Shown here piece by piece: positions 6,106-25,734 of a stretch of DNA of 64,000 bases. Made by a program: the position numbers and the translations under genes. Position 1 is the first letter of the stretch. The number at the start of each line of letters is the position of its first letter. The stretch is from Alpinimonas psychrophila (GTDB lineage: Bacteria > Actinomycetota > Actinomycetes > Actinomycetales > Microbacteriaceae): contig NZ_JACGWU010000001.1 in NCBI RefSeq assembly GCF_014137865.1, positions 186,001 to 250,000 of the forward strand, written 5' to 3'. Below the pieces are notes generated by a model, which saw only the letters and a list, made by a program, of their open reading frames with translations, did not search any database and was not told the DNA's origin.

Positions 6106-6118
6106 TATGTCATAACAT
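6106..6118 (-). promoter_or_regulatory. Candidate GntR (IolR-like) operator upstream of iolC
   Basis: TATGTCATAACAT lies 69 bases before the iolC ATG. Its reverse complement ATGTTATGACATA occurs exactly at 24559-24571 before the sugar ABC operon. The core TGTCATAACA fits KGWCHTRACA, which is how I recall the C. glutamicum IolR consensus. The site is an imperfect palindrome, as expected for a GntR dimer. The likely binder is the GntR protein at 28524-29285. Confidence 0.65.
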
Positions 6119-8027: not shown

Positions 8028-8107
8028 ATTCAAGAATCTGAATTTGACGCTTAAATTTCACACCGAAGAAATATCCGAACTCGATAGTTCACGAAAGAAG
8101 ATCACCT

Positions 8108-9604: not shown

Positions 9605-9625
9605 TTTCATAGCGTTGCGGGTGCT

Positions 9626-9651
9626 GGGCCGGGAGAATAATCTTCCGGCCC
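9626..9651 (+). terminator. Hairpin between iolA and iolB
   Basis: GGGCCGG at 9626-9632 pairs with CCGGCCC at 9645-9651 around a 12-base loop. No T-run follows, so this is more likely an RNA-processing or partial-termination hairpin that tunes iolA against iolB than a full terminator. It stands in the 108-base gap between the two genes. Confidence 0.45.
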
Positions 9652-9712
9652 CGCACTACGCCCGTCATCAACTCATACTTATTTCACGGCCCATCTCATT
9701 GCGGAGGACACC

Positions 9713-10666: not shown

Positions 10667-10702
10667 AAACTTCGCTCATATAAATTTGAAAGGACACCGA
10701 GC

Positions 10703-12631
10703 ATGACATCGTCTAATGCAACCAGGCGCATGACCGTGAGCCAGGCTCTCATTGAGTTCTTGGGCCATCAGTTCACCGTTGATGGTGACAACCGTGCACG
10801 AACGATAGTGGGCACTTTCGGTATTTTTGGTCACGGAAACGTTGCCGGCATAGGGCAAGCCCTCAAGCAGCTCTCCGTCGATGAGCCCACCCTTATGCCC
10901 TATCACCAGGCCCGTAATGAACAGGGTATGGTGCACGAATCTATTGCCTACTCGCGCATGACGCGTCGCCGTTCGACCTTCGCGTGTGCCGCCTCCGTTG
11001 GGCCCGGGTCCACGAACATGCTGACCGGCGCTGCCGTTGCCACCACAAATCGTCTTCCCGTTCTTCTGCTTCCTTCAGACACCTTCGCCACGCGCGTCTC
11101 CGATCCCGTCTTGCAACAACTGGAGCTTCCGCAGGACGCCAGCATGAGCGTCAACGACGCCTTCAAGCCGCTGTCGCGTTTCTTCGACCGAGTGAATCGT
11201 CCCGAGCAGCTTTTCTCAGCAGCCCTGGGCGCGATGCGCGTTTTGACTGACCCGGTTGAGACAGGCGCGGTCACTATTTCGCTCCCCGAAGATGTGCAGG
11301 CCGAACTCATCGAGGTTCCGGCTGAATTCTTGGCCGACCGCGAGTGGCACATTCGTCGCCCCCGCCCTGACCGGGGCATCATCGCCGAGGTTGCCCGTGC
11401 CATTTCACGCGCGAAGCGGCCCATGATCGTCGCCGGTGGTGGCGTCATCTACTCGGATGCTGCAGCCGCCCTCCGCGCCTTCGTCGAAGCGACCGGCATC
11501 CCGGTTGGTCTCTCGCAGGCCGGGATGGGGTCGCTCACCTGGGATCACGCCCAAAACCTTGGCTCTGTTGGTGCCACCGGAACAACCGCTGCCAACCGTG
11601 CCGCAGCTCAGGCTGACCTCATTATTGGAATCGGTACGCGCTACAGCGACTTCACCGCGGCCAGCCGCACCGCGTTCCAGAACGCCGACGTGCGTTTTAT
11701 CAACATCAATATCGCCTCCTTCGACGCGTTCAAGCACGGCAGCGCTATTCCGGTCGTAGCGGATGCCCGTGAATCGATTCTCGAGTTGACTGAGGCTCTC
11801 ACGGGTTTCCATGTGGCGGCAGATTTTGTCGCTGATTACGCGCGTGATAAAGCCACGTGGGACGCCGCGGTCGATGAGTCCTTCGTTGACCGTCGCCTCG
11901 CACTCCCCAGCCAGGCCGAGATCATTGGTGCCGTTCAACAGGCCTCGGACCCGCGTGATGTCGTGGTGTGTGCCGCGGGATCACTGCCCGGCGATCTGCA
12001 CAAGCTATGGCGTGTGCGTGACGACTTGGGCTACCACGTGGAATATGCCTTTTCGTGCATGGGTTACGAAATTGCCGGTGGTATCGGTGTGGCTCGGGCC
12101 GATAAGACCCGTGACGCCATTGTCATGGTCGGTGATGGCTCGTACTTGATGATGCACTCCGAAATCGTCTCGGCCGTTGCCGAGGGAATCAAGTTCATCA
12201 TCGTGCTGATTCAGAACCACGGCTACGCGTCGATCGGTCACCTCAGTGAAGATATTGGGTCCCAGCGCTTCGGCACGCTGTATCGCTATCAAGACGATGA
12301 AGGCAACTTCGAGAAGGGCGAGATTCTCCCCATCGATTTGGCGGCCAACGCCGCCAGCTACGGCCTCGACGTCATCTCCATCGAGCCCACAGCCAACGCG
12401 ATTGCTGACCTGAGCGCTGCCATGGCGAAGTCGAAGGCATCGAACCGCGCCACCTTGATCCACATCAATAACGATCCTCGTTTGTACGCTCCCGACGGTG
12501 AGGGGTGGTGGGACGTGCCGGTTGCGGCTGTTTCCACTTTGCCCAGCACTCAGAAGGCTCGCGCCGAGTATCTCGAGAATCGAACGGCCCAGAGGCCCCT
12601 CCTTGGGCGCGGCACCGCTGACCGACTCTAA
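10703..12631 (+). CDS. iolD: 3D-(3,5/4)-trihydroxycyclohexane-1,2-dione hydrolase
   Basis: ThDP-dependent hydrolytic ring opening of the cyclic dione made by IolE, giving 5-deoxy-glucuronate. 642 residues, normal for IolD. N-terminal Pyr domain with ARNEQGMVHESIAYSR (the activating Glu), central domain with MIVAGGGVIYSDA, C-terminal PP domain with MVGDGSYLMMHSEI and QNHGYASIGHLSED at 504-517. That last block and SQRFGTLYRY are the canonical IolD active-site loop. RBS GAAAGGACACC. Contrast with the second homologue at 18918-20882, in which this loop is replaced. Confidence 0.95.
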   Translation: MTSSNATRRMTVSQALIEFLGHQFTVDGDNRARTIVGTFGIFGHGNVAGIGQALKQLSVDEPTLMPYHQARNEQGMVHESIAYSRMTRRRSTFACAASVGPGSTNMLTGAAVATTNRLPVLLLPSDTFATRVSDPVLQQLELPQDASMSVNDAFKPLSRFFDRVNRPEQLFSAALGAMRVLTDPVETGAVTISLPEDVQAELIEVPAEFLADREWHIRRPRPDRGIIAEVARAISRAKRPMIVAGGGVIYSDAAAALRAFVEATGIPVGLSQAGMGSLTWDHAQNLGSVGATGTTAANRAAAQADLIIGIGTRYSDFTAASRTAFQNADVRFININIASFDAFKHGSAIPVVADARESILELTEALTGFHVAADFVADYARDKATWDAAVDESFVDRRLALPSQAEIIGAVQQASDPRDVVVCAAGSLPGDLHKLWRVRDDLGYHVEYAFSCMGYEIAGGIGVARADKTRDAIVMVGDGSYLMMHSEIVSAVAEGIKFIIVLIQNHGYASIGHLSEDIGSQRFGTLYRYQDDEGNFEKGEILPIDLAANAASYGLDVISIEPTANAIADLSAAMAKSKASNRATLIHINNDPRLYAPDGEGWWDVPVAAVSTLPSTQKARAEYLENRTAQRPLLGRGTADRL

Positions 12632-12661
12632 CTAAATCCCAACATCTTTAGGAGAAACATC

Positions 12662-13675
12662 ATGGAACAAAACTTTCGTATTGGCCTCATTGGAACCGGC
12701 CGCATTGGCCTTGTGCACGCGGGCAGCATTGCCGACACTAAGGGTGCTGAACTCACGTGGGTCTGTGATCCCTTCATCGAGGGTGCGGAGCGCATCTCCG
12801 CTCAATTCGGTGGCAAGATAACCAAGAATCCTGAGGAACTTTTTGCCTCCGGTGAGGTTGATGTCGTCGTCATTGCTTCGCCCACCCCGACGCACGTTGA
12901 CCTGATTAGCGCTGCCATTGATGCCGGAGTTCACGTTCTGTGTGAAAAGCCCATTGACCTCGATATCGTTCGTGTCGATGCGTTGCGTGCAAAAGTTGCT
13001 GCGGCGAAGGCCAATGTTGCTTTGGGGTTCAACCGTCGATTCGACCCCCAGTTCGAAGAGATTCACACGCGTGTTGCCGAGGGCGACATCGGAATTCTCG
13101 AACAACTCACCATCATCAGCCGTGACCCCGCGCCCGCTCCTCAGGCCTACATTGCTGTCTCCGGCGGAATTTTTCGCGACATGACCATTCACGACTTTGA
13201 TATGGCGCGCTACTTCATTCCCAACATCGTTGAGGTGACGGCCGTCGGTGCCAATAGCTTTAGCGATTACATCAAAGAAGAAGGCGACTACGACTCCGCT
13301 GTCGTCACGTTGCGCGGTGACAACAACGAGCTGATCACGATCGTTAACTCGCGTCACAGCAGCTACGGGTACGACCAGCGCCTGGAGGCGTTTGGAAGTG
13401 AAGGAATGCTCTACGCCCAGAACATCGCCGAGACCACCGTTGCGAAGTACGGCAAAGCGGCCGTTGAGGCTCGTAAGCCTTACCTCGAGTTCTTCCTCGA
13501 CCGTTATGCCATTTCGTACCGCCGCGAGCTCGGGCTGTTCCTCGACAGTATTCGCAGTGGCACGCAGATTAACCCGAGTTTTGAGGATGGTCGCGCGGCA
13601 CTCGTCTTGGCGGACGCAGCTCTCGAATCTGCCCGCACCGGCAAAACGATTGACGTTCGCGGCAAGCTCTCATAG
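12662..13675 (+). CDS. iolG: Inositol 2-dehydrogenase, Gfo/Idh/MocA family
   Basis: NAD-dependent oxidation of myo-inositol to 2-keto-myo-inositol (scyllo-inosose), first step of operon A. 337 residues: Rossmann motif LIGTGRIGLVHAGSI, EKPIDLD with the catalytic Lys near residue 97, DMTIHDFDMARYF with the Asp/His pair near residue 175, and a C-terminal NPSFEDGRAALVLADAALES block typical of IolG. RBS AGGAGAAACATC. The gap to iolD is 30 bases. A hairpin follows before the MFS gene. scyllo- or chiro-inositol dehydrogenase activity cannot be excluded. Confidence 0.9.
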   Translation: MEQNFRIGLIGTGRIGLVHAGSIADTKGAELTWVCDPFIEGAERISAQFGGKITKNPEELFASGEVDVVVIASPTPTHVDLISAAIDAGVHVLCEKPIDLDIVRVDALRAKVAAAKANVALGFNRRFDPQFEEIHTRVAEGDIGILEQLTIISRDPAPAPQAYIAVSGGIFRDMTIHDFDMARYFIPNIVEVTAVGANSFSDYIKEEGDYDSAVVTLRGDNNELITIVNSRHSSYGYDQRLEAFGSEGMLYAQNIAETTVAKYGKAAVEARKPYLEFFLDRYAISYRRELGLFLDSIRSGTQINPSFEDGRAALVLADAALESARTGKTIDVRGKLS

Positions 13676-13680
13676 TAAGA

Positions 13681-13707
13681 CGCGCGGCGGTTCTGAGCAG
13701 CCGCGCG
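13681..13707 (+). terminator. GC-rich hairpin after iolG
   Basis: CGCGCGGC at 13681-13688 is the inverse of GCCGCGCG at 13700-13707, leaving an 11-base loop. There is no U-tract, so read-through into the MFS gene is likely; it may act as a 3' stabiliser or an attenuator between the enzyme genes and the transporter. Confidence 0.4.
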
Positions 13708-13759
13708 GACATATCCTTTGCGCCACAATATTTCGCACAATTACTTCCTGAGGACGACG

Positions 13760-15037
13760 ATGATCACAGCACTCCCAACTCTGTCACCGCGCGTCCCCCG
13801 GGCAATGGTGGTGTGGTTCTGGTCGATCTTCGCCCTGTTCTTCACCCGTGGAGTGCTTCTCGCTACATGGTCCAACCGTGGGCCCGAAATTCGCGAAACA
13901 CTCAACCTCGACCTTCCATCGATGGGCTGGTATGCCGCCTGTCTCAGCGTCGGAGCGGTTACCGGCGTCTTGATTTCTGAGAGGCTCGTGGGGAGGATCG
14001 GCTCCCGAAACTTCTCGCTCCTGTCCTATACGGTCATGGGAAGCGCACTGGCGCTCCTGGGGTTAAACCTGGAGTGGAAGAACGTCCTAATGTCTTTCAT
14101 CGTCACAGTTTTGCTTGGCTTGCCGCTCGGAATGGCCGACTACGACAACAACCTTGAAGCCAGCAATATCGACCGTGAATCGCCCAAGAGTCGTGTACCG
14201 GCCCTGTCAGGGGGATTCAGTGTGGGAGTTCTTCTCGGAGCCCTCCTGGTAGGGATTGTCAGCACTGCTGGAATGGGCATCACCCCCAACTTCATTTCCA
14301 TCGGCCTCATCGTTATTGCCCTCTCGGCCATTGCCTCTCTCTTTATCGGCAAGACGAACGGCCGGATGGCCCACGTTGCCGAGGGTGGCGTTCGCGCAGC
14401 AAAGATCTCGTTCAAGGACATCGCCCGGGAACCTCGAAGTCGGCAGATTGCCGTCATCGCCTTCGCCTTCGTTTTTGCGGAAGGAGTGGGGGTCGTTTGG
14501 ATTCCGGTCGCCCTCGTGCAGAATGGCTTTTCTCCCGCGTTGGCAGCGTTTGGTTACACCCTGTTTGGCTTGGGGTTTGTCGTCATGCGCTTTGTGGGCG
14601 GGCCCATCACTGACCGCATCGGGCGACGCAACGTTGTTCTTTTCTCCGCAATCACCGCCAGCGCCGGCATCATCATCTTTATTTTCACTCCCGTTCTGGG
14701 CATCCCCCTCCTAGGAATTTTGCTCTGGGGGCTCGGTGACTCCATCGGTTTGGCCATGTGTATTGCTGCGATGGGCGATGATGAGAAGCGCGTTCACGCT
14801 CGCATGACTTTCCTGTGGACCATCGTCTACGTGGCCAACATCGTTGTCGGGCCCATCATTGGCCAGTTGTCCGGGGCCTTTGGCCTCATGGGCGCGCTGG
14901 TTGCGCCGCTGGTGTTCCTCGTCGCTGCCGGTCTCGTCAGTCGCGCTGTAGGCGAATCGCATCCCGATGCAATTCCTACCTCATCGTCAGCTCCCGCCTC
15001 AGTAGCAGCGGCAGACCCTAAGGACGTATCGGCTTAG
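13760..15037 (+). CDS. MFS transporter at the end of the inositol operon
   Basis: 425 residues with about twelve membrane helices. DRIGRRN-type loop motif (GGPITDRIGRRNVVLFSA) after helix 8, an acidic cytosolic loop at about residue 210, and an Ala/Ser-rich C-terminal tail. Start set at ATG 13760 because TTCCTGAGGACGACG gives an RBS; an upstream in-frame ATG at 13718 has none. Operon position suggests uptake of inositol or a related polyol, or export of an intermediate. It is not a close IolT match by eye, since the IolT-type PESPRWL block is absent. Its last 20 bases overlap the convergent gene on the other strand. Confidence 0.82.
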   Translation: MITALPTLSPRVPRAMVVWFWSIFALFFTRGVLLATWSNRGPEIRETLNLDLPSMGWYAACLSVGAVTGVLISERLVGRIGSRNFSLLSYTVMGSALALLGLNLEWKNVLMSFIVTVLLGLPLGMADYDNNLEASNIDRESPKSRVPALSGGFSVGVLLGALLVGIVSTAGMGITPNFISIGLIVIALSAIASLFIGKTNGRMAHVAEGGVRAAKISFKDIAREPRSRQIAVIAFAFVFAEGVGVVWIPVALVQNGFSPALAAFGYTLFGLGFVVMRFVGGPITDRIGRRNVVLFSAITASAGIIIFIFTPVLGIPLLGILLWGLGDSIGLAMCIAAMGDDEKRVHARMTFLWTIVYVANIVVGPIIGQLSGAFGLMGALVAPLVFLVAAGLVSRAVGESHPDAIPTSSSAPASVAAADPKDVSA

Positions 15038-15980
15038 TCAGGGTTCCCAGTTGGTGCGTCTCAAGCTCATTCTTGAAGACGCGCAGAAGCTCCACGAGTG
15101 GCGTAGAGCCGAGCTGGAGGACCTTCTTGGTCTGGGCGTTGCCAAGGGATGAGTCCATCGGGACAGCTGCGGGGAATAGCTGATCCACTGGAGGCTCGGT
15201 TTGACGAAGCAAGCCGGCATCGAGTTCAAAGACATCACACACCAGTAGTGCAAGGTCCCAGCGAGCGATGGCATCGTCGCCGACGAGATGGAACGTTCCG
15301 GCCGCACCAAGGGTGATGACGCGTTCCACCTGAGCGCCAATTTCGGCCGCCAACGACGGGGTCGTGATGAGGTTGACGCGGTCGCCCATCCAGACATCAA
15401 AAGGTAATCCAGCCTGGAGGGCCTCGACGAGGGAATAGACGAAATAGCCAAAGCCAACGTCTTGACTGCGGGGACTTTCGGCAAGTTGGTGGCGGCCCAT
15501 GACGCCGGCAATGCGGCAGATGGCGCCCGAGGTCGGGGCGAGATCACGGATGACTTGCTCACCTAAAGCTTTGAGGTAGCCGTAAAAATTGATAGCGTTT
15601 CCGGGATGGTTTTCGGGCTCGAGGTGCCCCGTGCCATCCATGATCCAATCGGTGGAGATATACACGATGTGGGCGTTGTTTCGTTTGGCTGCCTGGGCAA
15701 CCCGGCTCGTCATGCCGACGTAGGCGTCGTAGGCGGCAGGGGGATCTGCCAGAAGTTTGTTGAAATCGTTGGCAATGGCACAGTGCACGATGGCATCCAC
15801 CCCAACCGTGCCGGCAGCCAGCGAATCGATGTCCGAGAAATCAACGAGACGCGTCTCCCAAGGCACGGGGCTTTCGGGCTCACGACGAACGAGGCCCATA
15901 ACGTCGTGGCCGTACAGACTCAGAACGGAGGCAACGTTACTTCCCACAAATCCGGTTGAACCGGTGACAGCAATTCTCAT
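15018..15980 (-). CDS. NAD-dependent epimerase/reductase (RmlD-like extended SDR)
   Basis: 320 residues. N-terminal Rossmann motif VTGSTGFVGSNVA, Ser of YISTDWIMDGTG near residue 118, and the active-site YxxxK in INFYGYLKALGEQ. Overall resemblance is to dTDP-4-dehydrorhamnose reductase-like proteins, but no nucleotide-sugar genes are adjacent. Last gene of operon B, so it probably oxidises, reduces or epimerises a cyclitol or sugar-acid intermediate. Start ATG 15980 is preferred over the long upstream extension because the Rossmann strand begins at residue 2. Specific substrate unknown. Confidence 0.8.
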   Translation of the reverse strand: MRIAVTGSTGFVGSNVASVLSLYGHDVMGLVRREPESPVPWETRLVDFSDIDSLAAGTVGVDAIVHCAIANDFNKLLADPPAAYDAYVGMTSRVAQAAKRNNAHIVYISTDWIMDGTGHLEPENHPGNAINFYGYLKALGEQVIRDLAPTSGAICRIAGVMGRHQLAESPRSQDVGFGYFVYSLVEALQAGLPFDVWMGDRVNLITTPSLAAEIGAQVERVITLGAAGTFHLVGDDAIARWDLALLVCDVFELDAGLLRQTEPPVDQLFPAAVPMDSSLGNAQTKKVLQLGSTPLVELLRVFKNELETHQLGTLTKPIRP

Positions 15981-16002
15981 GTTTCTCAACTTCTCTGAGT
16001 GG

Positions 16003-16917
16003 CTAGGGCAGAACCTGGTGGGGTGCCGGGCGACCTTCCAGAACGTCCTTGACTCCGTTGGCGGCCTGCCGAAATGTTTCCCGCGTGGCATTGATGCTGA
16101 GGCCCATCACGTGCGGGGTGAGCACGACATTCTCGTGCGAAAAAATAGGATGAAAAGCCGGTGGCTCCTCATCGAAGACATCGAGCCCTAAGCCGCCGAG
16201 GTGCCCAGAAATCAGCGCCGCGTGAGCGGCCTCTAACTCGAGGAGGGGTCCACGGCCACAATTGATGAGCACGGCTCCGGGTGGCATTGCGTCGAGAAAG
16301 TCGGCGTTGACCATGTGGCGGGTTTCTTCGGTCAAGGGCACGTGCAAGGTGATGACGTTGCTCCGCTGCGCCAACTCTGCGAGGTCGGCCACCCGACGCT
16401 CGGCGGGGATGTCGGCGTAGGGGTCGAAAGCCAACACCCGCATCCCAAAGGCGGAGGCGATCTCGGCTACCCGACGCCCAATGCGGCCGTAGCCAACGAT
16501 TCCGATGGTCGCGTCTTCCACGTCGTGCACAGGGTAATTCGTGCGTTCGCTCCAGCGCCCTTGAGCGACAATCTGCGTCAGCGGGCCGAGACGTTTGACA
16601 AGGTGCAGGGTCTGGGCAAAGACACCTTCCGCAACAGCATTGGTGTTGGAACCGGGGGTAATGAGCACCGGGATATTTCGCAACGCAGCCGCGGCAACAT
16701 CCACCAGTTCCGTTCCCACTCCGGTGCGCGCAATCACCTTGAGGTGTGGCATGGCGTCAAGCTGGTCCACGCCAACAACATAGGCGGCGCGCACGATCGC
16801 ACCGGAGGCTTCGGCGAGATCGGCATGCGATGGGGCATCAATGAACCGGATCTGTGGGCCCAGGACAGGTTGCACAATTTCTGGATCAACCGGTCCCAGA
16901 CCAACAACGGTGAGCAT
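16003..16917 (-). CDS. D-2-hydroxyacid dehydrogenase (hydroxypyruvate/glyoxylate reductase-like)
   Basis: 304 residues. RTGVGTELVD in the substrate domain, Rossmann motif GIVGYGRIGRRVAE near residue 145, catalytic Arg in NCGRGPLLE, Glu in DVFDEEPP and His in LTPHVMG: the complete Arg-Glu-His set of NAD(P)-dependent D-2-hydroxyacid dehydrogenases (SerA/GhrB group, no ACT domain). Within operon B it could interconvert hydroxypyruvate and D-glycerate, or act on another 2-oxo acid released by the adjacent aldolase. ATG 16917 follows the upstream stop by 4 bases; the longer open frame upstream overlaps the neighbour and is unlikely. Confidence 0.85.
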   Translation of the reverse strand: MLTVVGLGPVDPEIVQPVLGPQIRFIDAPSHADLAEASGAIVRAAYVVGVDQLDAMPHLKVIARTGVGTELVDVAAAALRNIPVLITPGSNTNAVAEGVFAQTLHLVKRLGPLTQIVAQGRWSERTNYPVHDVEDATIGIVGYGRIGRRVAEIASAFGMRVLAFDPYADIPAERRVADLAELAQRSNVITLHVPLTEETRHMVNADFLDAMPPGAVLINCGRGPLLELEAAHAALISGHLGGLGLDVFDEEPPAFHPIFSHENVVLTPHVMGLSINATRETFRQAANGVKDVLEGRPAPHQVLP

Positions 16918-16921
16918 GGAA

Positions 16922-18130
16922 CTAGGCCCGGAGTGCGGCAGTCGTGCCCGCTTCAGCAGACAAGGTAACCCAGGCACCGGAATCCGCCGACGTCTCCGCG
17001 GCAGAGACAACACGGGCTGCAGCGACGGCATCATTAATGTTCGAGTTCAACGCCTGGCCGCCAACGAAGGCCTCCAAGAATTTCTTCGCTTCAATCACCT
17101 TGAGGTCGTCGTAGCTCATTCCTGTTCCCGCGCCGGGCTGGAAGTGATCAAAATCACCAAAGCCCGGAGCGACCATGACACGCTGGTAACCGAGGTGCAC
17201 GCCCTTGCGTCCGATCGCCAGTTGAATCTCGTTCATGTTTTCGAAGTCCCACTTCACGGAGCCTTCGGTTCCATAAATCTCGATGGCATAGCTGGCGCGC
17301 GGGCCAACCGCAACCCGGGATGCCTCCAGAGTGCCCATGGCACCGGCACCCTGAGCGGAGTCCGCGAACTTCACCATCATCGCGGCGTAATCCTCGTTCT
17401 CCACGGCTTTCATTTCGCCACCCTCGATCACGTCGAAGTGAGTGCCCTGACCCATTTGCAACACGGGTCGCTCGGTGTAAACGGTCTTCGTCATACCGTT
17501 GACGTCGGAAATAGGGCCGACCGTGTAGTGCATCAGGTCAATGAGGTGACCCATCAAGTCACCTAAAACGCCGCTTCCGGCGAGGCCGCGAATGAAGCGC
17601 CATGACAGTGCACCGTTGGGTTCAGAAGAATAGTCCGCGAACATGCGGCCGTGCACGTTGGTGACGCGGCCCAGTGAGCCGTCAGCGACGAGAGTCTTGA
17701 TGTGTTCGATGGCGGGAGCGTTGCGGTAGTTGAAACCGATCGTGGTGAGAACGTCGGCTTCCGCCGCCGCGGCCTGCACGCTCATGGTTTCGACAACACC
17801 GCGACCCACGGGTTTTTCGATCCAGAATGCTTTTCCAGCCTTGGCCGCTGCAATACCAATCTCCGCGTGGAGAAAGTTGGGGGCGCAGATGGAGACGACC
17901 TCCACCTCGGGGTCGGCCAAGACCTCGTGGTAGTCAAGCGTTGACCGCTCAAAGCCCAAGACGTCGACGGCGTAGTCGGCGCGTTCCTGCGAGGTATCGG
18001 CCGCAATGATGAGTCTCGGCTTGATTCCGAGTTCGGGGTAGACAACGGGGAGTGCTTGGTAGGCACGACTGTGCACTTTACCCATCCAGCCAACGCTGAT
18101 GAGGCCGACTCCAACAGTTCTTGCGGTCAT
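16922..18130 (-). CDS. Gfo/Idh/MocA-family oxidoreductase, operon B
   Basis: 402 residues, longer than IolG at 12662. Rossmann motif GLISVGWMGKVHSRAYQ, WIEKPVGRG with the catalytic Lys near residue 105, and GDLMGHLIDLMHY with the Asp/His pair. The C-terminal half carries IYGTEGSVKWDFENMNE. This longer type is often annotated as inositol 2-dehydrogenase or dehydrogenase of a sugar or sugar acid. The ATG overlaps the TGA of the HpcH-type aldolase gene by 4 bases (ATGA). Within operon B it is the best candidate for the entry oxidation of a cyclitol different from that used by operon A. Confidence 0.87.
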   Translation of the reverse strand: MTARTVGVGLISVGWMGKVHSRAYQALPVVYPELGIKPRLIIAADTSQERADYAVDVLGFERSTLDYHEVLADPEVEVVSICAPNFLHAEIGIAAAKAGKAFWIEKPVGRGVVETMSVQAAAAEADVLTTIGFNYRNAPAIEHIKTLVADGSLGRVTNVHGRMFADYSSEPNGALSWRFIRGLAGSGVLGDLMGHLIDLMHYTVGPISDVNGMTKTVYTERPVLQMGQGTHFDVIEGGEMKAVENEDYAAMMVKFADSAQGAGAMGTLEASRVAVGPRASYAIEIYGTEGSVKWDFENMNEIQLAIGRKGVHLGYQRVMVAPGFGDFDHFQPGAGTGMSYDDLKVIEAKKFLEAFVGGQALNSNINDAVAAARVVSAAETSADSGAWVTLSAEAGTTAALRA

Positions 18131-18918
18131 GATGCGTGTTCCTTTAGTTGTGATATTTCTTGGGTAACAATTTTGCGCAGGAGCGTGGAATCGCTTCCCA
18201 CGGCGATGAAGGTAAAGCCCATGTCTCTGAAGCGGCTGCCACTGGTGGCATCGGGGGCAAGAATTCCGCAGACAATGTTTTCCCTTTTGCCGGCGGCCAA
18301 AACCTTGTGGCAGGCCTCGACAAAGACGGGGTGGGTGAAGTCTCGGGGGACTTCCAAAGCGAAGCTCAAATCCAGCGGGCCAATGAACAGAACGTCAACA
18401 CCCTCAACGCGGGCAATGTCATCTACGGCACTCAGTGCCTCCAGCGTTTCAATCTGGATGATGCACGCGGCATCGCGGCCCGACTCGAGCACCGAAAGGT
18501 CGCCGCCCCACCGGGCCGAACGGTTGTAGGTGGCAACGCCACGATCCCCAACGGGGGGATAGCTCATGTGCCGCACGGCCTCGATAGCCTCAGCCGTGGA
18601 ACGAATTCGAGGCACCATCACACCGGCCGCCCCCGCGTCGAGAGCCCGCCCAATGCGAATACGTTCCTGCGACTCGACCCGCACGAACGCGCCCACACCG
18701 TAGGCACCCGCAGCCACAATGGTGGCTCCGAGTTGTTCCTCGCTACCGCCACCGTGCTCCTGGTCGATGAGGACCCAATCCACACCGCTGGTGGCAACCA
18801 CCTCAGCGGCCATCGGCGAACCGAGCCCAAGGAAAGTGCCATAGGTTGACTCATTGGCAATGAAACGTTGGCGCAGGGCGCCCATATCGAGCGGAGAGCT
18901 CGCCAGCAGTCGTGCCAT
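18127..18918 (-). CDS. HpcH/HpaI-family class II pyruvate aldolase
   Basis: 263 residues. Metal-dependent retro-aldol cleavage of a 4-hydroxy-2-oxo acid to pyruvate plus an aldehyde. Family hallmarks: VLIDQEHGG with the catalytic His55, FVRVES, GAAGVMVPRI, IQIETLEAL (metal Glu) and FIGPLDLSFALE (metal Asp). GarL (5-keto-4-deoxy-D-glucarate aldolase, giving tartronate semialdehyde) and RhmA are relatives, and HpaI itself releases succinate semialdehyde. Start ATG 18918 shares its first base with the iolD-like TGA; both ends of this gene overlap neighbours, so operon B is tightly coupled. An aldolase of this type is not part of the classical inositol route. Confidence 0.9.
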   Translation of the reverse strand: MARLLASSPLDMGALRQRFIANESTYGTFLGLGSPMAAEVVATSGVDWVLIDQEHGGGSEEQLGATIVAAGAYGVGAFVRVESQERIRIGRALDAGAAGVMVPRIRSTAEAIEAVRHMSYPPVGDRGVATYNRSARWGGDLSVLESGRDAACIIQIETLEALSAVDDIARVEGVDVLFIGPLDLSFALEVPRDFTHPVFVEACHKVLAAGKRENIVCGILAPDATSGSRFRDMGFTFIAVGSDSTLLRKIVTQEISQLKEHAS

Positions 18919-20882
18919 CAGCCATGCCATCTCTGTGTGGCAAGACCAATTTCATAGTCTGCGCGAATGTCGGCAACCCAGGCTTGTTCGGAGACTTCAG
19001 CCGGGGCCACATCCCACCACAGTTCTGAGCCGGGAAGGTTTGCGTGAGGAATCGTGGGCACCACGATAACCACGGGACCGTTGGATGAGCGGGTTGCATC
19101 CAGAACGTTTGCGAACTCTGCTGCGTTCTCGGCGCGGTAGGCCTCACATCCCATGCCCAGCGCCATTTGCACGATATCCAACTTAAGAAAGTTCCCCTCA
19201 AGGCGCGGTGCCTTGCCGCCAGCGCTCGCCGATTCGGTCACGACCGGACCTTCCTCGCGGTAGCGAAACTCATTGCCGAAGGAGTTTCCAGTGCGCCACA
19301 TTTGCAGGCGTCGAATCACTTGGTAACCGTGATTCTCAGATACCACGATGGTCAGTGGCAGGTGCTCTTGGGAAGCCGTCACGAGCTCGGTGGGGGCCAT
19401 CACAAAGGTGCCGTCACCGATGAAGGTGACAACGCGGTGGGCGGGGTTGGGGTCAGCCAGGCGCACGCCGATGGCCGCGGGCAATTCGTATCCCATGCAC
19501 GAGAAACCGAACTCGAGATGAGCGGTCCGGCCACCGGTCGCATCCCACACCTTCTGGATATCTCCTGGAGGACTCCCGGCACCCGCAATGAGGGTGTCCC
19601 CCTCGCGCATGTGCTTCTGCAGCACGCCAAGGAGCTGCCCCTGCGTGATGACGGCGTCGGTGTTTTCTGAGCCCACGAGGGTTGTCTTATCGAAGGTCAC
19701 CTGGGTATCGATGGCGGCCTCACGCGTGACGCGCCACTGGGACATCTTCTCGCGAATATCCGCGCTCCAGCTTTCCGGAACGCGATACCCGAGGATGGCT
19801 GCGGTGAGGGCAGTCAACCCGAGCTTGGCATCAGAGATGATGGTCTTTGCGCCCTGCTTAATACCGTCGAATTCGGCAACGTTAATGGAGACGAATCGCA
19901 CATCAGGATTCTGAAAAAGCGACTGGGAGCCCGTGGCGAAGTCTGTGAGGCGTGTGCCGACATGGATGATGACGTCGGCTTGCTCAGCGAGACGATTTGT
20001 CTGCGGGGCGCCTTCGAGACCAACTCCCCAGACGTGCCAATCCGCTGATGTCTGAACAGCACCTTTGCCGCCAAACGTTTCGGCTACAGGGATCCCGGTT
20101 GCGTCGGCAAACGCGCGCAGGGCCTCAACGGCATCGGAATAGATGATTCCGCCGCCAGCAATGAGGAGGGGCTTCTTGGCAGCCTTGATGACGGCTGCGA
20201 CATCCGCTACGTCATCGGAAGAGGGCTCGGGGCGGCGAATCTTCCAGTCTTTTTCGGCGAAGAAACTCACCGGAAAATCGAAGGCGTGAGACTGCACATC
20301 TTGGGGGAGGGAAATGACAACGGCCCCGGTCTCCACGGGATTCGCCAAGACGCGGAAAGCCTGGGGCAGTGCCGTGAGGAGTTGCTCGGGGCGGGTGATG
20401 CGATCAAAGAACTTTGAGACGGGGCGGAAAGCATCGTTGACCGTGATGTCGGGGCTGTGGGGGAGCTCAATTTGCTGGAGGACGGGACCTTGGCGCCGGG
20501 TGGCGTAGGTGTCGCCGGGGAGAAGCAGCACAGGAATACGGTTGACCGTAGCTAATGCGGCCGCCGTCACCATGTTCAAAGCACCGGGCCCAATGGAAGC
20601 CGTCACAACGAGTGCCTGCTTGCGCTTGGAGGCCTTAGCGAAGGCGATGGCAGCGTGCGTCAGGGCTTGTTCATTGCGTCCCTGAACGAACGGAAGATCG
20701 TCACTGTACTGGTCTAGTGCCTGACCAAGTCCGGCGACATTCCCGTGTCCGAAAATTCCCATCGCAGCCGGGATGAAGCGCCGTCGCACCCCATCAGAGA
20801 CGGTGTACTGGACGGCGATGTATTTGACGATTGCTTGAGCGACCGTAAGACGAACGGTTTCACCATAGTTGGGAGTAGTCAT
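18918..20882 (-). CDS. Divergent IolD-like ThDP enzyme, operon B
   Basis: 654 residues, homologous end to end with iolD of operon A: FIPAAMGIFGHGNVAGLGQAL, GRNEQALTHAAIAFAK with the activating Glu, LLIAGGGIIYSDA, and FIGDGTFVMAPTEL in the PP domain. The active-site loop after NHGY (residues 517-520) reads QVIRRLQMWRTGNSFG rather than the ASIG-LSE-SQRFG pattern of true IolD. Substrate is therefore probably a different cyclic dione or 2-oxo compound. It sits 13 bases after the aldehyde dehydrogenase gene. Calling it IolD outright would be over-assignment; a C-C hydrolase or a decarboxylase/ligase role is possible. Confidence 0.85.
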   Translation of the reverse strand: MTTPNYGETVRLTVAQAIVKYIAVQYTVSDGVRRRFIPAAMGIFGHGNVAGLGQALDQYSDDLPFVQGRNEQALTHAAIAFAKASKRKQALVVTASIGPGALNMVTAAALATVNRIPVLLLPGDTYATRRQGPVLQQIELPHSPDITVNDAFRPVSKFFDRITRPEQLLTALPQAFRVLANPVETGAVVISLPQDVQSHAFDFPVSFFAEKDWKIRRPEPSSDDVADVAAVIKAAKKPLLIAGGGIIYSDAVEALRAFADATGIPVAETFGGKGAVQTSADWHVWGVGLEGAPQTNRLAEQADVIIHVGTRLTDFATGSQSLFQNPDVRFVSINVAEFDGIKQGAKTIISDAKLGLTALTAAILGYRVPESWSADIREKMSQWRVTREAAIDTQVTFDKTTLVGSENTDAVITQGQLLGVLQKHMREGDTLIAGAGSPPGDIQKVWDATGGRTAHLEFGFSCMGYELPAAIGVRLADPNPAHRVVTFIGDGTFVMAPTELVTASQEHLPLTIVVSENHGYQVIRRLQMWRTGNSFGNEFRYREEGPVVTESASAGGKAPRLEGNFLKLDIVQMALGMGCEAYRAENAAEFANVLDATRSSNGPVVIVVPTIPHANLPGSELWWDVAPAEVSEQAWVADIRADYEIGLATQRWHG

Positions 20883-20895
20883 AATCTTTTCTTCC

Positions 20896-22338
20896 TTAGT
20901 TCCAGGCTCTACCGTGCAGGATGACCGTTTTTACTTCAGTCATTTCGGCTACGGCAGAGCGAACGCCTTCCTTGCCGATACCGCTGGACTTGTAGCCACC
21001 GTAGGGCATGAGGTCGGCGCGCCATAGTTGAGTCCAGTTGATATGGACGACGCCAGATTCGACTTGGCGGGCAGCTTGGATCGCGGCCGAGACATCCTTG
21101 GTGAAGATACCGGCACCGAGGCCATAAACGGTGCTGTTGGCTAATTCAATGGCGTGGTTGGTGTCACGGGCTGTGCTGATGGCCACGGCAGGGCCGAAGA
21201 GCTCGTCTTGAGCAATGGATGCCCGTGGGTCAACGTTGGAAAGAATCGCCGGCTGAATGAGAGTTCCATTTTGCTCGCCACCGGTGACCAGCGTGGCCCC
21301 CTCGGCTTGCGCACGCTTGAGGGCGGCGGTTACGCGGTCAGCCTCGGCACGGGAAATGAGTGTGCCAACCTTTGTGTCCTCCGCACGTGGGTCACCAACC
21401 TTAATTTTTTCCACTTTGCTCTTGAGCGCATCAATGAAATCAGCAGCGATATGGTCGTCGACAATCACGCGTTGGACAGAAATGCAGACTTGACCGGCAT
21501 TGATGTACCCGCCGAGAGCTACGGCTTCTGCGGCGAAATCGATGTCGGCGTCACGCAGGATGGCTACAGGCCCGGAGGCACCGAGTTCGAGGGAGAGCTT
21601 CTTGATGCCGGCAACCCTCGTGATGTGCTCGCCTGTTGCTGTCGAGCCAGTGAAGGAAACCTTGCGAACGCGGGGATCGCTGACAAGGGCATCTCCGAGC
21701 AGGGCGCCCGAGCCAGTGACGATGTTCAGCACACCATCGGGGAGCCCCGCGTCTTGGAAACACTGCGCGAGGGCAATGCTGGTTAGAGGTGTCGCACGTG
21801 CGGGCTTGAGTACGACGGCGTTACCGGCCGCAATCGCGGGAGCAATTTTGTGGAGAACGAGGAGAGCCGGGTAGTTGAACGGTGCAATGGCCACGACAAC
21901 GCCAACGGGTTCGCGAAGCGTGAAACCTATTTTCTCGAAGCCCGTTCCCTTGTTGGCGTCCAAGGGGAGGGACTCTCCGTAGAGCTGGCTGCCCTCGAAG
22001 GCGGCGAGACGAATAATCTCCCCTGATCGACCAGCTTCGCCGCGAGCTTCAACGAGGCTTTTACCGTTTTCGGCGCTGATGACCTGGGCGATGTCTTCCG
22101 ATCGCTCATCGGCGAGAAGTGCTGCCTTGAGCAGGATTGCAAACCGTTCGTGGGCGGGGGTAAAGCGCCAGGCCTTGGCCCCAGCGGTGGCCGCAGCCAA
22201 CGCAACATTCACGTCTTCAGCGTCGGCAACCGCTACAGTTCCGACGATTCTGTCGTCATAGGGGGAGAGGATGTCTTCATACTTTCCCGCGCGCGGGGCT
22301 GTCCAAACGCCGTTGACTAAAAGGCTCTTACGCTCCAT
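20896..22338 (-). CDS. Aldehyde dehydrogenase, first gene of operon B
   Basis: 480 residues, NAD(P)-dependent ALDH superfamily: IAPFNYPALLVLHKIAPAIAAGN, SFTGSTATGEHI, LELGASGP with the catalytic Glu, catalytic Cys in YINAGQVCISVQRV, and the C-terminal MPYGGYKSSGIGKEGVR. Unlike iolA it has the ordinary LELG Glu, so it is a hydrolytic rather than CoA-acylating enzyme. The sequence resembles glycolaldehyde, lactaldehyde or succinate-semialdehyde dehydrogenases. ATG 22338 has GGGAGAG seven bases upstream; a longer frame starting at 22386 would run through the LacI operator and lacks an RBS. Likely oxidises the aldehyde released by the HpcH-type aldolase. Confidence 0.9.
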   Translation of the reverse strand: MERKSLLVNGVWTAPRAGKYEDILSPYDDRIVGTVAVADAEDVNVALAAATAGAKAWRFTPAHERFAILLKAALLADERSEDIAQVISAENGKSLVEARGEAGRSGEIIRLAAFEGSQLYGESLPLDANKGTGFEKIGFTLREPVGVVVAIAPFNYPALLVLHKIAPAIAAGNAVVLKPARATPLTSIALAQCFQDAGLPDGVLNIVTGSGALLGDALVSDPRVRKVSFTGSTATGEHITRVAGIKKLSLELGASGPVAILRDADIDFAAEAVALGGYINAGQVCISVQRVIVDDHIAADFIDALKSKVEKIKVGDPRAEDTKVGTLISRAEADRVTAALKRAQAEGATLVTGGEQNGTLIQPAILSNVDPRASIAQDELFGPAVAISTARDTNHAIELANSTVYGLGAGIFTKDVSAAIQAARQVESGVVHINWTQLWRADLMPYGGYKSSGIGKEGVRSAVAEMTEVKTVILHGRAWN

Positions 22339-22373
22339 TGCATACTCTCCCGTCGAGGTTTCCAGACAAAGTC

Positions 22374-22385
22374 TGGAACGGTCCA
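22374..22385. promoter_or_regulatory. LacI-type operator before operon B
   Basis: TGGAACGGTCCA, an imperfect palindrome centred on CG as in LacI/GalR-family operators, 35 bases upstream of the aldehyde dehydrogenase ATG. The exact reverse complement stands at 24410-24421 before iolE. The LacI-family regulator gene lies between the two copies. Confidence 0.65.
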
Positions 22386-22436
22386 ATTCTCATGCGTAAC
22401 ACTACACTGACGTCAAACTAAAAGTTTCTTCCTGGC

Positions 22437-23459
22437 CTAACGGCGCTGCGTCGAATCGCGAATAACGAGGGTGGGCACAAACTGAATGTCTTGACCAGCA
22501 AGTTCAGACCAGGGTCGTTCCGAGGTCAAGAGTTCCGCGGCCTTTAGCGCCATCGCTACTTTTTCTTGCTCAATGCTTGTAATCGAGATCTGCCTCAGCG
22601 ACGCAACGTGCGTGTTGTCATAGCCCGTCAGCGCAATATGGGCGTGACCTGCTGCCACGCTTTCTTTGATGGCGTCTTGAGCTCCTACGGCAACAACGTC
22701 ATTAAAGCAGACGATGGCGCTCGTCTCGCTGTGTTGGGAAAGTGCTTTAACCGTCGCCCGGTATCCGCCCTGCTCGGATCGATCGGTGGCATCAAGGCTC
22801 AAGGGAGCCAGACCAACGCGTGTCATGGCCCGTTGATAGCCCTCGAAGCGTGATGTGTCGACGGCACCATCCATTGGCCCGACATACACAACGTGCTTGT
22901 GCCCTTCAGCTTGAAGATGCTCAACGATGAGGCGCATTCCTTCGTCGTCATTGCTGCGGAGGTTGACTTCCCGAGAAGTTGCGTCTGAGGGTATGGTCAG
23001 GACTTTGACAATAGGAATGTGGGCAGGGACAGAGAGCAGGGGGCGTTCATCCGGCAAGTCTCCTACGACCAAGATGCCTTTAGGGCGAAGATCCAAAAGG
23101 GCTTGCACAGTCGAGGGCTCGACAATCTTTCGTCCACCAACTTCCACAATGATCGCTGCGGTCATGAATGTTTCGTGCCCCCGGGCGAGGAGCGCGATCC
23201 GAACGATGTCCGCTATTTCGGTGTATACCTGATTGTGCAAATCAACGACCAGGATGCCGACAAAATTGCTTGCCCCAGTAGCCAATGAGCGCGCCCAAGA
23301 GTTGGGAGTAAACCCGAGTTTATTTGCGGCGGCCAAGACGGCGGCCCGACGTTCGGGGCTCACCTTTTCCTTGCCGGCGAACACGAGGGAAACCAACGAC
23401 TTGGAGACCCCGGCTTCGAGGGCGACATCTCTAATGGTGGGACGTTTTTTTGTCGACAC
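22437..23459 (-). CDS. LacI-family transcriptional regulator
   Basis: 340 residues. N-terminal HTH and hinge: TIRDVALEAGVSKSLVSLVFAGKE, then KLGFTPNSWARSLATG. The rest is a periplasmic-binding-like effector domain (VGILVVDLHNQVYTEI, GDAV-like CFNDVVAVGAQDAI, LTGYDNTHVA) ending in TLVIRDSTQRR. It is the second gene of an iolE-lacI transcript, 17 bases after iolE. The predicted operator TGGAMCGKTCCA occurs before iolE (so it controls its own operon) and before operon B. The effector is probably the operon B substrate or an inosose-type intermediate; not determinable from sequence. Confidence 0.92.
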   Translation of the reverse strand: MSTKKRPTIRDVALEAGVSKSLVSLVFAGKEKVSPERRAAVLAAANKLGFTPNSWARSLATGASNFVGILVVDLHNQVYTEIADIVRIALLARGHETFMTAAIIVEVGGRKIVEPSTVQALLDLRPKGILVVGDLPDERPLLSVPAHIPIVKVLTIPSDATSREVNLRSNDDEGMRLIVEHLQAEGHKHVVYVGPMDGAVDTSRFEGYQRAMTRVGLAPLSLDATDRSEQGGYRATVKALSQHSETSAIVCFNDVVAVGAQDAIKESVAAGHAHIALTGYDNTHVASLRQISITSIEQEKVAMALKAAELLTSERPWSELAGQDIQFVPTLVIRDSTQRR

Positions 23460-23476: not shown

Positions 23477-24358
23477 CTAATCGAGCTCGGCTAGAGCGGC
23501 TTTTAGAAAGTCGACCGAGGCTTGGGCATCCTCAATTGGGCCCTCGGAAACGGCCGGCTCCTGGCTCAACACGTTGTCTTGCTCTAGGACGTACCAACCT
23601 GCGTAGCCGGCAGCGTTGAGAGCGGCCAGGATTGCTTTCATGTCAACATCGCCCTGACCAACGGGTGCATAGAGACCCTGGATGACGCCTTGGTAATAGT
23701 TGATTTCACCATCAATGACGCGTTTAGCAACTGTAAGGCGCACATCCTTCAGGTGAACATGACCGATGCGATCGGCATGGTCCTGGGCAAATTTCACGGG
23801 GTCTGTTCCACCAATCATCATGTGTCCCGTATCGAAACAGAATCCGATCCCCGAACCGTTGACGACGCGCTCAATGTCTGAGGGGCCTTCGACAATGGTG
23901 CCGACATGAGGGTGGATGACGGCGCGAACACCGTATTCAGCGGCAACACTCTCGAGTTTGTCAAGATTCCTGAGGAGAAGGGCCCACTCGTTTTCCGTCA
24001 ATTCAGGACGGCTGTTGTAATCGTCGTTGCCTGTTGTTGCGGCGAGCACCATTACTTCGGCGCCGGCGGCCCTGAAAGCTTCGAGCTCCTTGCGAATCTC
24101 GGGCTCAGGATCATGGTCTGCCTTATAGAGGACGACGGGAACGAATCCGCCAACAGCCGTCAGGTTGTGCTTCTTGAGAACCTCGCTGCGCAGGGCGGGC
24201 TCTTCGGGAAGAAAACCGAGAGGGCCGAACTCGCAGGCGCTGAAACCCACCTGCGTCATTTCACTCAGTACACGATCTTGTTGCATTTGGTGGCCCCAGC
24301 CGGGCACCTCGCACACGCCCCATGAAATGGGGGCCCCAGCGATTTTGTGTTGTGACAT
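23477..24358 (-). CDS. iolE: Inosose dehydratase (2-keto-myo-inositol dehydratase)
   Basis: Dehydrates 2-keto-myo-inositol to the trihydroxycyclohexane dione used by IolD. 293 residues, xylose-isomerase-like TIM barrel. APISWGVCEVPGWGHQM at the N-terminus, IHPHVGTIVEG, CFDTGHMMIGG (metal His and Asp) and HVHLKDVR fit the IolE/IolH group. It is not in operon A, which lacks a dehydratase, but in a separate unit with the LacI gene and a LacI-type operator 52 bases upstream. It may therefore serve both operons. IolH-type function is an alternative, but then no dehydratase would be encoded here. Confidence 0.85.
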   Translation of the reverse strand: MSQHKIAGAPISWGVCEVPGWGHQMQQDRVLSEMTQVGFSACEFGPLGFLPEEPALRSEVLKKHNLTAVGGFVPVVLYKADHDPEPEIRKELEAFRAAGAEVMVLAATTGNDDYNSRPELTENEWALLLRNLDKLESVAAEYGVRAVIHPHVGTIVEGPSDIERVVNGSGIGFCFDTGHMMIGGTDPVKFAQDHADRIGHVHLKDVRLTVAKRVIDGEINYYQGVIQGLYAPVGQGDVDMKAILAALNAAGYAGWYVLEQDNVLSQEPAVSEGPIEDAQASVDFLKAALAELD

Positions 24359-24409: not shown

Positions 24410-24421
24410 TGGACCGTTCCA
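24410..24421. promoter_or_regulatory. LacI-type operator before iolE-lacI
   Basis: TGGACCGTTCCA, exact reverse complement of the copy at 22374-22385. It lies 52 bases upstream of the iolE ATG inside the 280-base divergent region shared with the ABC transporter. A weaker CG-centred element, AAGCGATT, is nearby at 24381-24388. Confidence 0.65.
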
Positions 24422-24558
24422 AAATACTATGGATGTGCGGGTGTTTTGTCTAGCGCGCACCCCGAGTAATCCGATCGAATATCAAAACCCCCAGTGGATC
24501 GATACTCAACCATTTCGGTTTGATAACTTTTGGCCTCATCGGGATTTGCAATGTAAGC

Positions 24559-24588
24559 ATGTTATGACATACTTCAAATGTTATGACA
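24559..24588 (+). promoter_or_regulatory. Tandem GntR (IolR-like) boxes before the sugar ABC operon
   Basis: ATGTTATGACATA at 24559-24571 and ATGTTATGACA at 24578-24588, two direct copies offset by 19 bases. The first is the exact reverse complement of the iolC box. A weak promoter reading (TTGCAA at 24546-24551, CATACT at 24568-24573, spacer 16) would place the first box over the -10 and the second just downstream, consistent with repression. Confidence 0.65.
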
Positions 24589-24639: not shown

Positions 24640-25626
24640 ATGACATTCAAAATCAAGATCGCTTCTGTTGCAGCAGTTGCAGCAGTTGTCGCGATGACGC
24701 TCGCAGGCTGTTCGGCCGGAGCCACCAGCTCCAGCACGACAGGCGCAGCAGCAGTTAAAGGCAACAAGATCTGCGTTTACACCCACGGTGATGGCGGAAC
24801 GTTCTGGTCCGTCTTCCAAAAGGGTGCCGAAGCAGCAGCTGCTGACCTCAACGTAACTCTCGACTACCAGGGCTCGACCAACGACTCGGCCAAGCAAGCT
24901 CAGACCATCACCGCTGGTATTGCTGCTGGCTGCCAAGGAATCGCCGCATCGGCTCCCGACCCCGCTGCTATCAAGACGGCAATGCTTGCTGCTCATGCCG
25001 CTGGCATCCCCACCGTCACGGCAAACTCGGGCTCTGCTGTCTTCGCTGAGCTCGGTGCATTTACGCACATTGGTCAAGATGAAATTGTCGCTGGCCGCGC
25101 TGCTGGCGAGAAGTTCAACGCAATGGGCCTGAAGAACATCCTCTGCCCCATCCAGGAAGCTGCTAACTCTGGCCTCACCGAGCGTTGCAAGGGTGCCTCT
25201 GAAACCTTCAAGGGTAAGGTCACGAACTTCAACGTTGATGGTGCTCTGGCAGACCTCACTGGTGCAGAGGCAAAGATTGCCGCAGCTCTCACAGCTGACC
25301 CCACGATCGACGGAATCTTTGCACTGAACGCTGACGTAGCCACCGGTGCTGCGCTTCCTGCAGCAACTGCATCGGGCCGTGCCATCAAGATCGGAACGAT
25401 CGACATGTCAGCCGATGCTCTCAAGGCAATTAAGGCCGGAACCATTGCCTTCGCTGTCGACCAGCAGCAGTACGCTCAGGGCTACATGGCCGTCGTTCTC
25501 TTGAACTTGGCCATCAACAACGGTAACGAGCTCGGTGGCGGACTGCCCATCTACTCGGGTCCTGGCTTTGTAACTGCCGAGAATGTCGACGCTGTTATGG
25601 CACTTGTTGCGGCTGGTACTCGCTAA
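24640..25626 (+). CDS. Sugar/inositol ABC transporter substrate-binding lipoprotein
   Basis: 328 residues. Signal peptide with lipobox MTLAGC, lipidation Cys24, then a Peripla_BP_4 (ribose/inositol-type) fold: KICVYTHGDGGTFWSVFQKGAE, ITAGIAAGCQGIAASAPDPAAI, DGIFALNADVATGAA, AFAVDQQQYAQGYMAV. Anchored outside the membrane and delivers substrate to the permease downstream. ATG 24640 has AGAGAGGC as RBS; the ATG at 24622 lacks one. Given the shared IolR-like boxes with iolC, myo-inositol or another cyclitol is the likely ligand; a simple sugar cannot be ruled out. Confidence 0.9.
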   Translation: MTFKIKIASVAAVAAVVAMTLAGCSAGATSSSTTGAAAVKGNKICVYTHGDGGTFWSVFQKGAEAAAADLNVTLDYQGSTNDSAKQAQTITAGIAAGCQGIAASAPDPAAIKTAMLAAHAAGIPTVTANSGSAVFAELGAFTHIGQDEIVAGRAAGEKFNAMGLKNILCPIQEAANSGLTERCKGASETFKGKVTNFNVDGALADLTGAEAKIAAALTADPTIDGIFALNADVATGAALPAATASGRAIKIGTIDMSADALKAIKAGTIAFAVDQQQYAQGYMAVVLLNLAINNGNELGGGLPIYSGPGFVTAENVDAVMALVAAGTR

Positions 25627-25640
25627 CACCAAGCGGTGAC

Positions 25641-25677
25641 AGACTGGCCGGTGAGCCGCAGGCTTACCGGCCAGTCT
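25641..25677 (+). terminator. Intercistronic hairpin between binding protein and permease
   Basis: AGACTGGCCGGT at 25641-25652 pairs with ACCGGCCAGTCT at 25666-25677; inside, a G-T wobble and AGCC/GGCT extend the stem around a GCA loop, giving about 17 pairs. Only TT follows, so it probably stabilises the binding-protein mRNA or attenuates the permease rather than terminating fully. Same layout as the oppA-oppB gap at 59031-59064. Confidence 0.75.
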
Positions 25678-25734
25678 TCATTCCAAAACCCGGAACCCGT
25701 AACCCGCAACACCGAACGAAAGAATCTGCCGAAG

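Follow-up and report, generated by a model that had tools for sequence, protein, structure and literature searches.

A conserved actinobacterial gene cluster that may encode a second, non-phosphorylated route of inositol breakdown

Introduction

Soil and plant debris are rich in inositols, whose breakdown is taught as following a single phosphorylated route in its lower half. The alternative inositol pathway of Thermotoga departs from the Bacillus route and is not known to combine an IolE/IolD-type ring opening with an HpcH enzyme. Here we analyze a stretch of 64,000 nucleotides of the Alpinimonas psychrophila genome (contig NZ_JACGWU010000001.1, positions 186,001 to 250,000; hereafter the window), an actinobacterial genome of 2.2 Mb and 58% GC, which carries a gene cluster, cluster B, that recalls the canonical myo-inositol pathway (IolG, IolE, IolD, IolB, IolC, IolJ, and IolA) in its dehydrogenase, its IolE, its IolD, and a predicted malonate semialdehyde handled by IolA. 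Instead of IolB, IolC, and IolJ, however, the cluster has an aldehyde dehydrogenase (ALDH), a D-2-hydroxyacid dehydrogenase, and an aldolase of the HpcH/HpaI family.

Two further described systems bear comparison. The oxidative hexuronate pathway (uronate dehydrogenase, glucarate dehydratase, GarL, and tartronate semialdehyde reductase) takes a uronate aldehyde, as proposed here for cluster B, to a diacid that an HpcH-family class II enzyme cleaves without phosphorylation, but cluster B has a 2-hydroxyacid dehydrogenase instead of a sugar-acid dehydratase, and its predicted product is hydroxypyruvate rather than pyruvate. The cluster aldolase (B4) shares the PF03328 family, the metal, the Arg and His residues, and (as predicted) diacid substrates with HpaI (4-hydroxy-2-oxoheptanedioate aldolase) and GarL, yet it scores far below their equivalog cut-offs and differs in an active-site loop (GVGSALAR to GVATYNR) and in a second short motif (PMV to PRV). 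A canonical IolBCDE cluster has been defined as at least three of iolB, iolC, iolD, and iolE in one cluster (PMC9430895); cluster B, with iolD and iolE only, falls outside this definition.

Results

The gene set of cluster B is conserved across distant Actinobacteria. A search of 297 genomes of the order with the aldolase gave five close homologs (52-57%), all five in the same gene set. When 84,980 species were scanned, 145 relatives came up, and the top 80 belong without exception to Actinobacteria (Arthrobacter, Sinomonas, Kocuria, Rothia, Brevibacterium, Leucobacter, Rhodococcus, Streptomyces, Kineosporia, and many freshwater metagenome-assembled genomes (MAGs)). Of the 49 loci that have 7 kb or more of sequence on either side, 43 have the full six-enzyme core of ALDH, IolD, HpcH, Gfo/Idh, 2-hydroxyacid dehydrogenase, and IolE on a single strand; of the remaining six, three lack IolE only, one lacks a recognized ALDH, and two are unrelated contexts. 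The neighborhood search suggested in a first-pass annotation of this DNA, for co-occurring IolD-like, HpcH, and D-2-hydroxyacid dehydrogenase genes, is thus strongly positive, and a grouping of five or six genes in dozens of distant genera is far beyond chance. On the operon strand iolA is found in 17 of the 80 loci and IolB, IolC, and IolJ in none. The plasmid collection gave no match to HpcH, which argues against plasmid spread.

One Arthrobacter operon runs transporter-ALDH-IolD-HpcH-Gfo-LacI-2-hydroxyacid dehydrogenase-Gfo-IolG-short-chain dehydrogenase/reductase (SDR)-IolE-Gfo-IolA. Four loci (L088, L097, L110, and L136) hold several further Gfo/Idh dehydrogenases together with an SDR and a divergent QuiC-like TIM barrel, and one of the added Gfo proteins resembles the bifunctional myo/D-chiro-inositol dehydrogenase, which suggests that such operons act as a hub where several inositol isomers enter. 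In a Kutzneria (L140) and an Amycolatopsis MAG (L149), homologs of the signature aldolase (50-55%) have no other cluster gene nearby. Four MAG records that bear the names Bifidobacterium breve or Gulosibacter massiliensis (L081, L085, L086, and L096) look mislabeled, their clusters being like those of freshwater actinobacteria.

The catalytic residues are invariant in every family of the cluster, and the aldolase, the Gfo/Idh and hydroxyacid dehydrogenases, and the ALDH all score well under every named equivalog. IolD (B5) reaches 778 bits against TIGR04377, over the curated equivalog cut-off of 715. The IolE-like protein (B8) stays under the TIGR04379 cut-off of 290 with 195 bits, which is more than the 124-170 bits of the IolEs adjoining canonical actinobacterial iolD in related genomes. 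The aldolase scores 116 bits to PF03328 (gathering threshold 25) and keeps the catalytic His, Arg, Glu, and Asp, with H59, R84, E161, and D187 invariant across 84 homologs. Its scores to the models of HpaI (TIGR02311), GarL (TIGR03239), and RhmA (NF007521), the relatives with structures in the PDB, are 162, 158, and 121 bits against cut-offs of 369, 407, and 441, and where HpaI has GIRGVGSALAR, the cluster group has the signature GDRGVATYNR, near-invariant in the 84 homologs at 92-100% per position.

The remaining enzymes are similarly distinct. The ALDH (B6) gives 272 bits to the IolA/MMSDH model TIGR01722 (cut-off 448.5), and the motifs that hold its general-base Glu E251 (LELG) and C285 (GQVC) are invariant among homologs. 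Because this hydrolytic Glu is kept, B6 is assigned from its motifs as a hydrolytic ALDH rather than one of the CoA-acylating type, hence not as a second IolA; a role as a second malonate-semialdehyde dehydrogenase was rejected as first choice on this ground and because Arthrobacter operons add a true IolA. The hydroxyacid dehydrogenase (B2; R261, E290, and H308 invariant in 73 homologs) scores 217 bits to phosphoglycerate dehydrogenase TIGR01327 (cut-off 454). For the Gfo/Idh dehydrogenase (B3), in which EKP and D191/H195 are invariant among homologs, the best solved relatives are levoglucosan dehydrogenase (6a3f) and scyllo-inositol dehydrogenase/L-glucose dehydrogenase (5ya8). The levoglucosan pathway hinted at by B3 was rejected, as B3 lies far under the NF052479 cut-off (294 bits against 650) and IolD and IolE would have no role there. 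Rhizopine, hinted at by the sugar-binding protein C1, was set aside too: C1 scores under the cut-off of its model, and the cluster showed no moc genes of the demethylase type.

The distribution of IolD bears on the substrate. In a tree, the IolDs of these clusters (B-type) form one side of a branch with support 100/99, apart from canonical actinobacterial IolDs, and the nearest to B5 comes from a Rhodoluna-labeled MAG of the Microbacteriaceae. IolD scores over its cut-off in all 30 cluster-B genomes examined, and in 13 small freshwater genomes the B-type is the single copy; three of these have IolB, IolC, and IolJ, and ten lack IolJ. Because no other IolD is present in these 13 genomes, among them the three with IolB, IolC, and IolJ, the B-type enzyme very likely performs the ordinary inositol ring opening, the hydrolysis of 3D-(3,5/4)-trihydroxycyclohexane-1,2-dione. 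In the five tested of the ten IolJ-less genomes (G718, G720, G722, G724, and G727) no IolC scores over its cut-off. The genes beside the cluster form a series of loss, from iolC-iolJ-iolA-iolB (L075) through iolA-iolB (L073) to iolB only (L081, L085, and L092). As the cluster is kept in freshwater genomes while iolC and iolJ drop out, the rest of cluster B can most likely stand in for IolC and IolJ.

One product is indicated by a duplicated gene. In Arthrobacter sp. Soil762 the B operon closes with an IolA that shares 89% identity with the one adjoining the genome's canonical iolC-iolJ-iolD, whereas another MMSDH of this genome reaches only 53%; because of this duplicated IolA, malonate semialdehyde is the probable aldehyde product of the cluster B pathway. 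The other product would be hydroxypyruvate rather than pyruvate, since no cluster gene removes the C3 hydroxyl and the chain stays fully hydroxylated. HpcH/HpaI and GarL enzymes accept hydroxypyruvate as a donor and yield 3,4-dihydroxy-2-oxo acids (PMC7610986), the reverse of the cleavage proposed for B4, which supports a hydroxypyruvate route. Hydroxypyruvate would also suit the Hyi-like protein C4.

We therefore propose, tentatively and at a little under an even chance, that cluster B encodes a self-contained non-phosphorylated inositol branch in which ring opening and oxidation are followed by HpcH cleavage to hydroxypyruvate and malonate semialdehyde. The Gfo/Idh dehydrogenase B3, with IolG-like helpers, would convert an inositol isomer to an inosose, IolE (B8) would dehydrate this to trihydroxycyclohexanedione, and IolD (B5) would open the ring to 5-deoxyhexuronate; family membership and genome profiles point to these three steps. 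The ALDH B6 would then act in place of IolB and oxidize the C1 aldehyde to 5-deoxyhexarate, the dehydrogenase B2 would oxidize C2 to give 2-oxo-3,4-dihydroxyadipate, and B4, in place of IolC and IolJ, would split C3-C4 into hydroxypyruvate and malonate semialdehyde, one feasible reaction being assigned to each conserved enzyme. Oxidation followed by HpcH cleavage is the simplest order that gives every conserved enzyme a single use, provided that IolD yields 5-deoxyhexuronate, that malonate semialdehyde leaves, and that cleavage requires a 2-oxo acid. Finally, IolA would take malonate semialdehyde to acetyl-CoA, and hydroxypyruvate could leave in the source genome through C4, through B2 acting as a reductase, and through glycerate kinase, whose PF02595 family is present there. 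The upper half of such a pathway is known, and the lower half would be new.

The cluster is larger than had been annotated. The six same-strand genes listed in the first-pass annotation are all present on the minus strand with the families it gave (NCBIfam and Pfam agree), separated by gaps of -13 to ∼20 bases; the longest reading frame of B2 covers 16003-17034, with an ATG at 16917 placed shortly after the B3 stop. The limits drawn around these six did not hold: the unit extends over 15018-28355 with the addition of a LacI regulator, the IolE-like gene, a divergent ATP-binding cassette (ABC) transporter, and the Hyi-like gene (Table 1), and the epimerase B1 was rejected as a core enzyme, having homologs in only 16 of 84 loci. 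Homologs of C1 occur within the B operon of Arthrobacter, Sinomonas, and Leucobacter, and homologs of C4 also adjoin two Leucobacter clusters. Nor is operon A complete for inositol breakdown, although the first-pass annotation had it so; it is otherwise canonical but contains no IolE gene, and the only IolE-like gene of the genome above 100 bits is B8 (195 bits; next best 99). With the only strong IolE-like gene sitting in cluster B, the two operons are probably not independent and probably share B8. An IolE/IolI-like gene with 99 bits to the IolE model (L151, 1348-2217, in the first 5 kb of its contig) stands directly upstream of a sugar-binding protein and probably marks another locus of the source genome for a sugar or a cyclitol.

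TABLE 1. Features of cluster B, its surroundings, and predicted operators in the window
Feature	Coordinates	Strand	Basis and proposed role
B1 NAD-dependent epimerase/RmlD-like reductase	15018..15980	-	Pfam RmlD_sub_bind/Epimerase; ATG at 15980; accessory
B2 D-2-hydroxyacid dehydrogenase	16003..16917	-	Closest NCBIfam model PGDH; proposed C2 oxidation of 5-deoxyhexarate to 2-oxo acid
B3 Gfo/Idh/MocA dehydrogenase	16922..18130	-	Proposed inositol-isomer dehydrogenase
B4 HpcH/HpaI class II aldolase	18127..18930	-	PF03328; proposed 2-oxo-3,4-dihydroxyadipate aldolase
B5 IolD, thiamine diphosphate-dependent trihydroxycyclohexanedione hydrolase, B-type clade	18918..20882	-	TIGR04377
B6 hydrolytic aldehyde dehydrogenase	20896..22338	-	PF00171; start 22338; proposed 5-deoxyhexuronate dehydrogenase
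B7 LacI-family regulator of cluster B	22437..23459	-	Family models; homologs in 56/84 loci
B8 IolE-like inosose dehydratase, upstream of B7, new to the gene list	23477..24358	-	TIGR04379, 195 bits
C1 ABC sugar-binding protein, rhizopine/inositol type	24640..25626	+	NF052284 rhzpin_SBP, 176 bits, under cut-off of 420
C2 ABC permease (BPD_transp_2)	25636..26784	+	Family models
C3 ABC ATPase	26781..27563	+	Family models
C4 hydroxypyruvate-isomerase/OtnI-like TIM barrel (Hyi-like)	27573..28355	+	TIGR03234, 112 bits, under cut-off of 353
C5 GntR/HutC regulator	28524..29285	-	Homologs adjoin canonical iolB or iolC in Kocuria, Brevibacterium, Streptomyces
Operon A: IolC, IolJ-like, IolA, IolB, IolD (A type), IolG, major facilitator superfamily transporter	6187..15037	+	Family models
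LacI-type operator TTGGACCGTTCCA	22374..22386	-	Palindrome search; 36 bases upstream of B6
LacI-type operator, second copy	24410..24422	-	Between B8 and ABC operon
iol-type palindrome ATGTTATGACAT	24559..24570	+	Before ABC operon; second near-copy at 24578-24589
iol-type palindrome upstream of operon A (iolC)	6107..6118	-	12 bases, identical to 24559-24570

Two predicted operator types connect these genes. The LacI-type palindrome TTGGAMCGKTCCA has just two exact matches in the 64 kb, where 0.39 would be expected even with one mismatch, so that one predicted LacI operator is common to the ABC transporter and the catabolic genes. In other genera TGGAMCGKTCCA is also found upstream of the ALDH, and in Arthrobacter the same palindrome precedes the transporter. 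Matches to the iol-type palindrome number seven against 1.8 expected, and no shuffle reaches seven; ATGTTATGACAT is likely a shared iol operator of operon A and the cluster B transporter, and its identity at the two places suggests control of the transporter by the ordinary iol regulator as well, for which C5 is the likely candidate. Beside the freshwater clusters ATGTTATGACAT is not generally kept, being found at one locus (L077) of the 11 checked.

Discussion

Several observations weigh against a self-contained non-phosphorylated branch. To our knowledge, no B-type enzyme has been characterized, and many of the genomes compared are incomplete MAGs, which makes any one absence less telling but leaves the recurring pattern intact. 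Some freshwater genomes have a weaker PfkB-type kinase (∼155 bits to the IolC model), and such a kinase or a class II aldolase could replace IolC or IolJ in some of them. The fate of hydroxypyruvate is a further difficulty: within the one glycerate kinase family searched, PF02595, no member was found in 21 of the 22 small freshwater genomes tested, and neither the small freshwater genomes tested nor the source genome has a tartronate semialdehyde reductase at curated level. Moreover, the proposed scheme needs no IolB, yet IolB occurs in 53 of the 54 cluster-B genomes, and iolB still adjoins the cluster where freshwater genomes lack IolC and IolJ. In a published survey about 48% of actinobacterial species have an iol cluster (PMC9430895), so we count the association of IolB with cluster B as strong, and the scheme does not explain it.

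It is because the IolB association and the fate of hydroxypyruvate are left unexplained that we retain a different order of events, in which IolB would act first to give 2-deoxy-5-keto-gluconate and HpcH would cleave the unphosphorylated or C6-oxidized form to malonate semialdehyde and dihydroxyacetone or hydroxypyruvate. The survival of an IolA-IolB pair alone in G720 also fits this order, but IolB is never within the B operon, HpcH enzymes bind a 2-oxo acid through the metal and an arginine, which 2-deoxy-5-keto-gluconate is not, and either the ALDH and the 2-hydroxyacid dehydrogenase would be idle or a C6 alcohol dehydrogenase would be missing; we regard it as improbable. Slightly less credible still is that the cluster feeds other inositol isomers or O-methyl inositols into IolB-IolC-IolJ, with HpcH, ALDH, and 2-hydroxyacid dehydrogenase handling side products. 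IolC over its cut-off in 48 of 54 genomes, the operator common to operon A, and the D-chiro-inositol-dehydrogenase-like Gfo in some clusters would agree with such a role, whereas the ten freshwater genomes that have the cluster without IolJ, the five of them tested for it also without IolC over its cut-off, do not, and a side role leaves the strict co-conservation of the three enzymes unexplained.

The first-pass annotation had proposed that an IolD-type opening of a different cyclic substrate is followed by cleavage to pyruvate and an aldehyde. Ring opening followed by a class II HpcH aldolase acting on a 2-oxo acid is supported here, and the statement that the gene set has no described pathway agrees with our literature search, which found no account of the gene set or of a hydroxypyruvate/malonate-semialdehyde inositol route, most subscription papers lying outside its coverage. 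A non-inositol cyclitol (quercitol or viburnitol, for instance, both deoxyinositols) is suggested by the closest known relatives HpaI, GarL, and RhmA, which release pyruvate, and by the extra Gfo/Idh and SDR dehydrogenases, which suggest diverse substrates. The B-type as sole IolD speaks against it, as does the duplicated IolA, which points to the normal malonate semialdehyde half, and pyruvate is hard to reconcile with a cluster in which the C3 hydroxyl stays. Oxidation of the aldol aldehyde by the ALDH, also part of that proposal, conflicts with Arthrobacter operons that, besides the ALDH, have an IolA dedicated to malonate semialdehyde. We consider a non-inositol substrate as unlikely as a feeder role.

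Returning to the non-phosphorylated branch, it seems to us possible rather than probable that cluster B represents a second inositol route, widespread in Actinobacteria, with ATP-free cleavage by a new HpcH-family activity, and that it has displaced IolC and IolJ in some freshwater actinobacteria. The cluster allows a clear enzyme-by-enzyme test, and gene-editing tools have been reported for Rhodoluna lacicola (PMC11577799). If the proposal is true, a bypass of the kinase and aldolase would alter the annotation of inositol use in many Actinobacteria and save ATP, freshwater lineages that use inositol would escape surveys based on IolBCDE, and the hydroxypyruvate chemistry of HpcH enzymes, so far known mainly from biocatalysis, would have a natural role.

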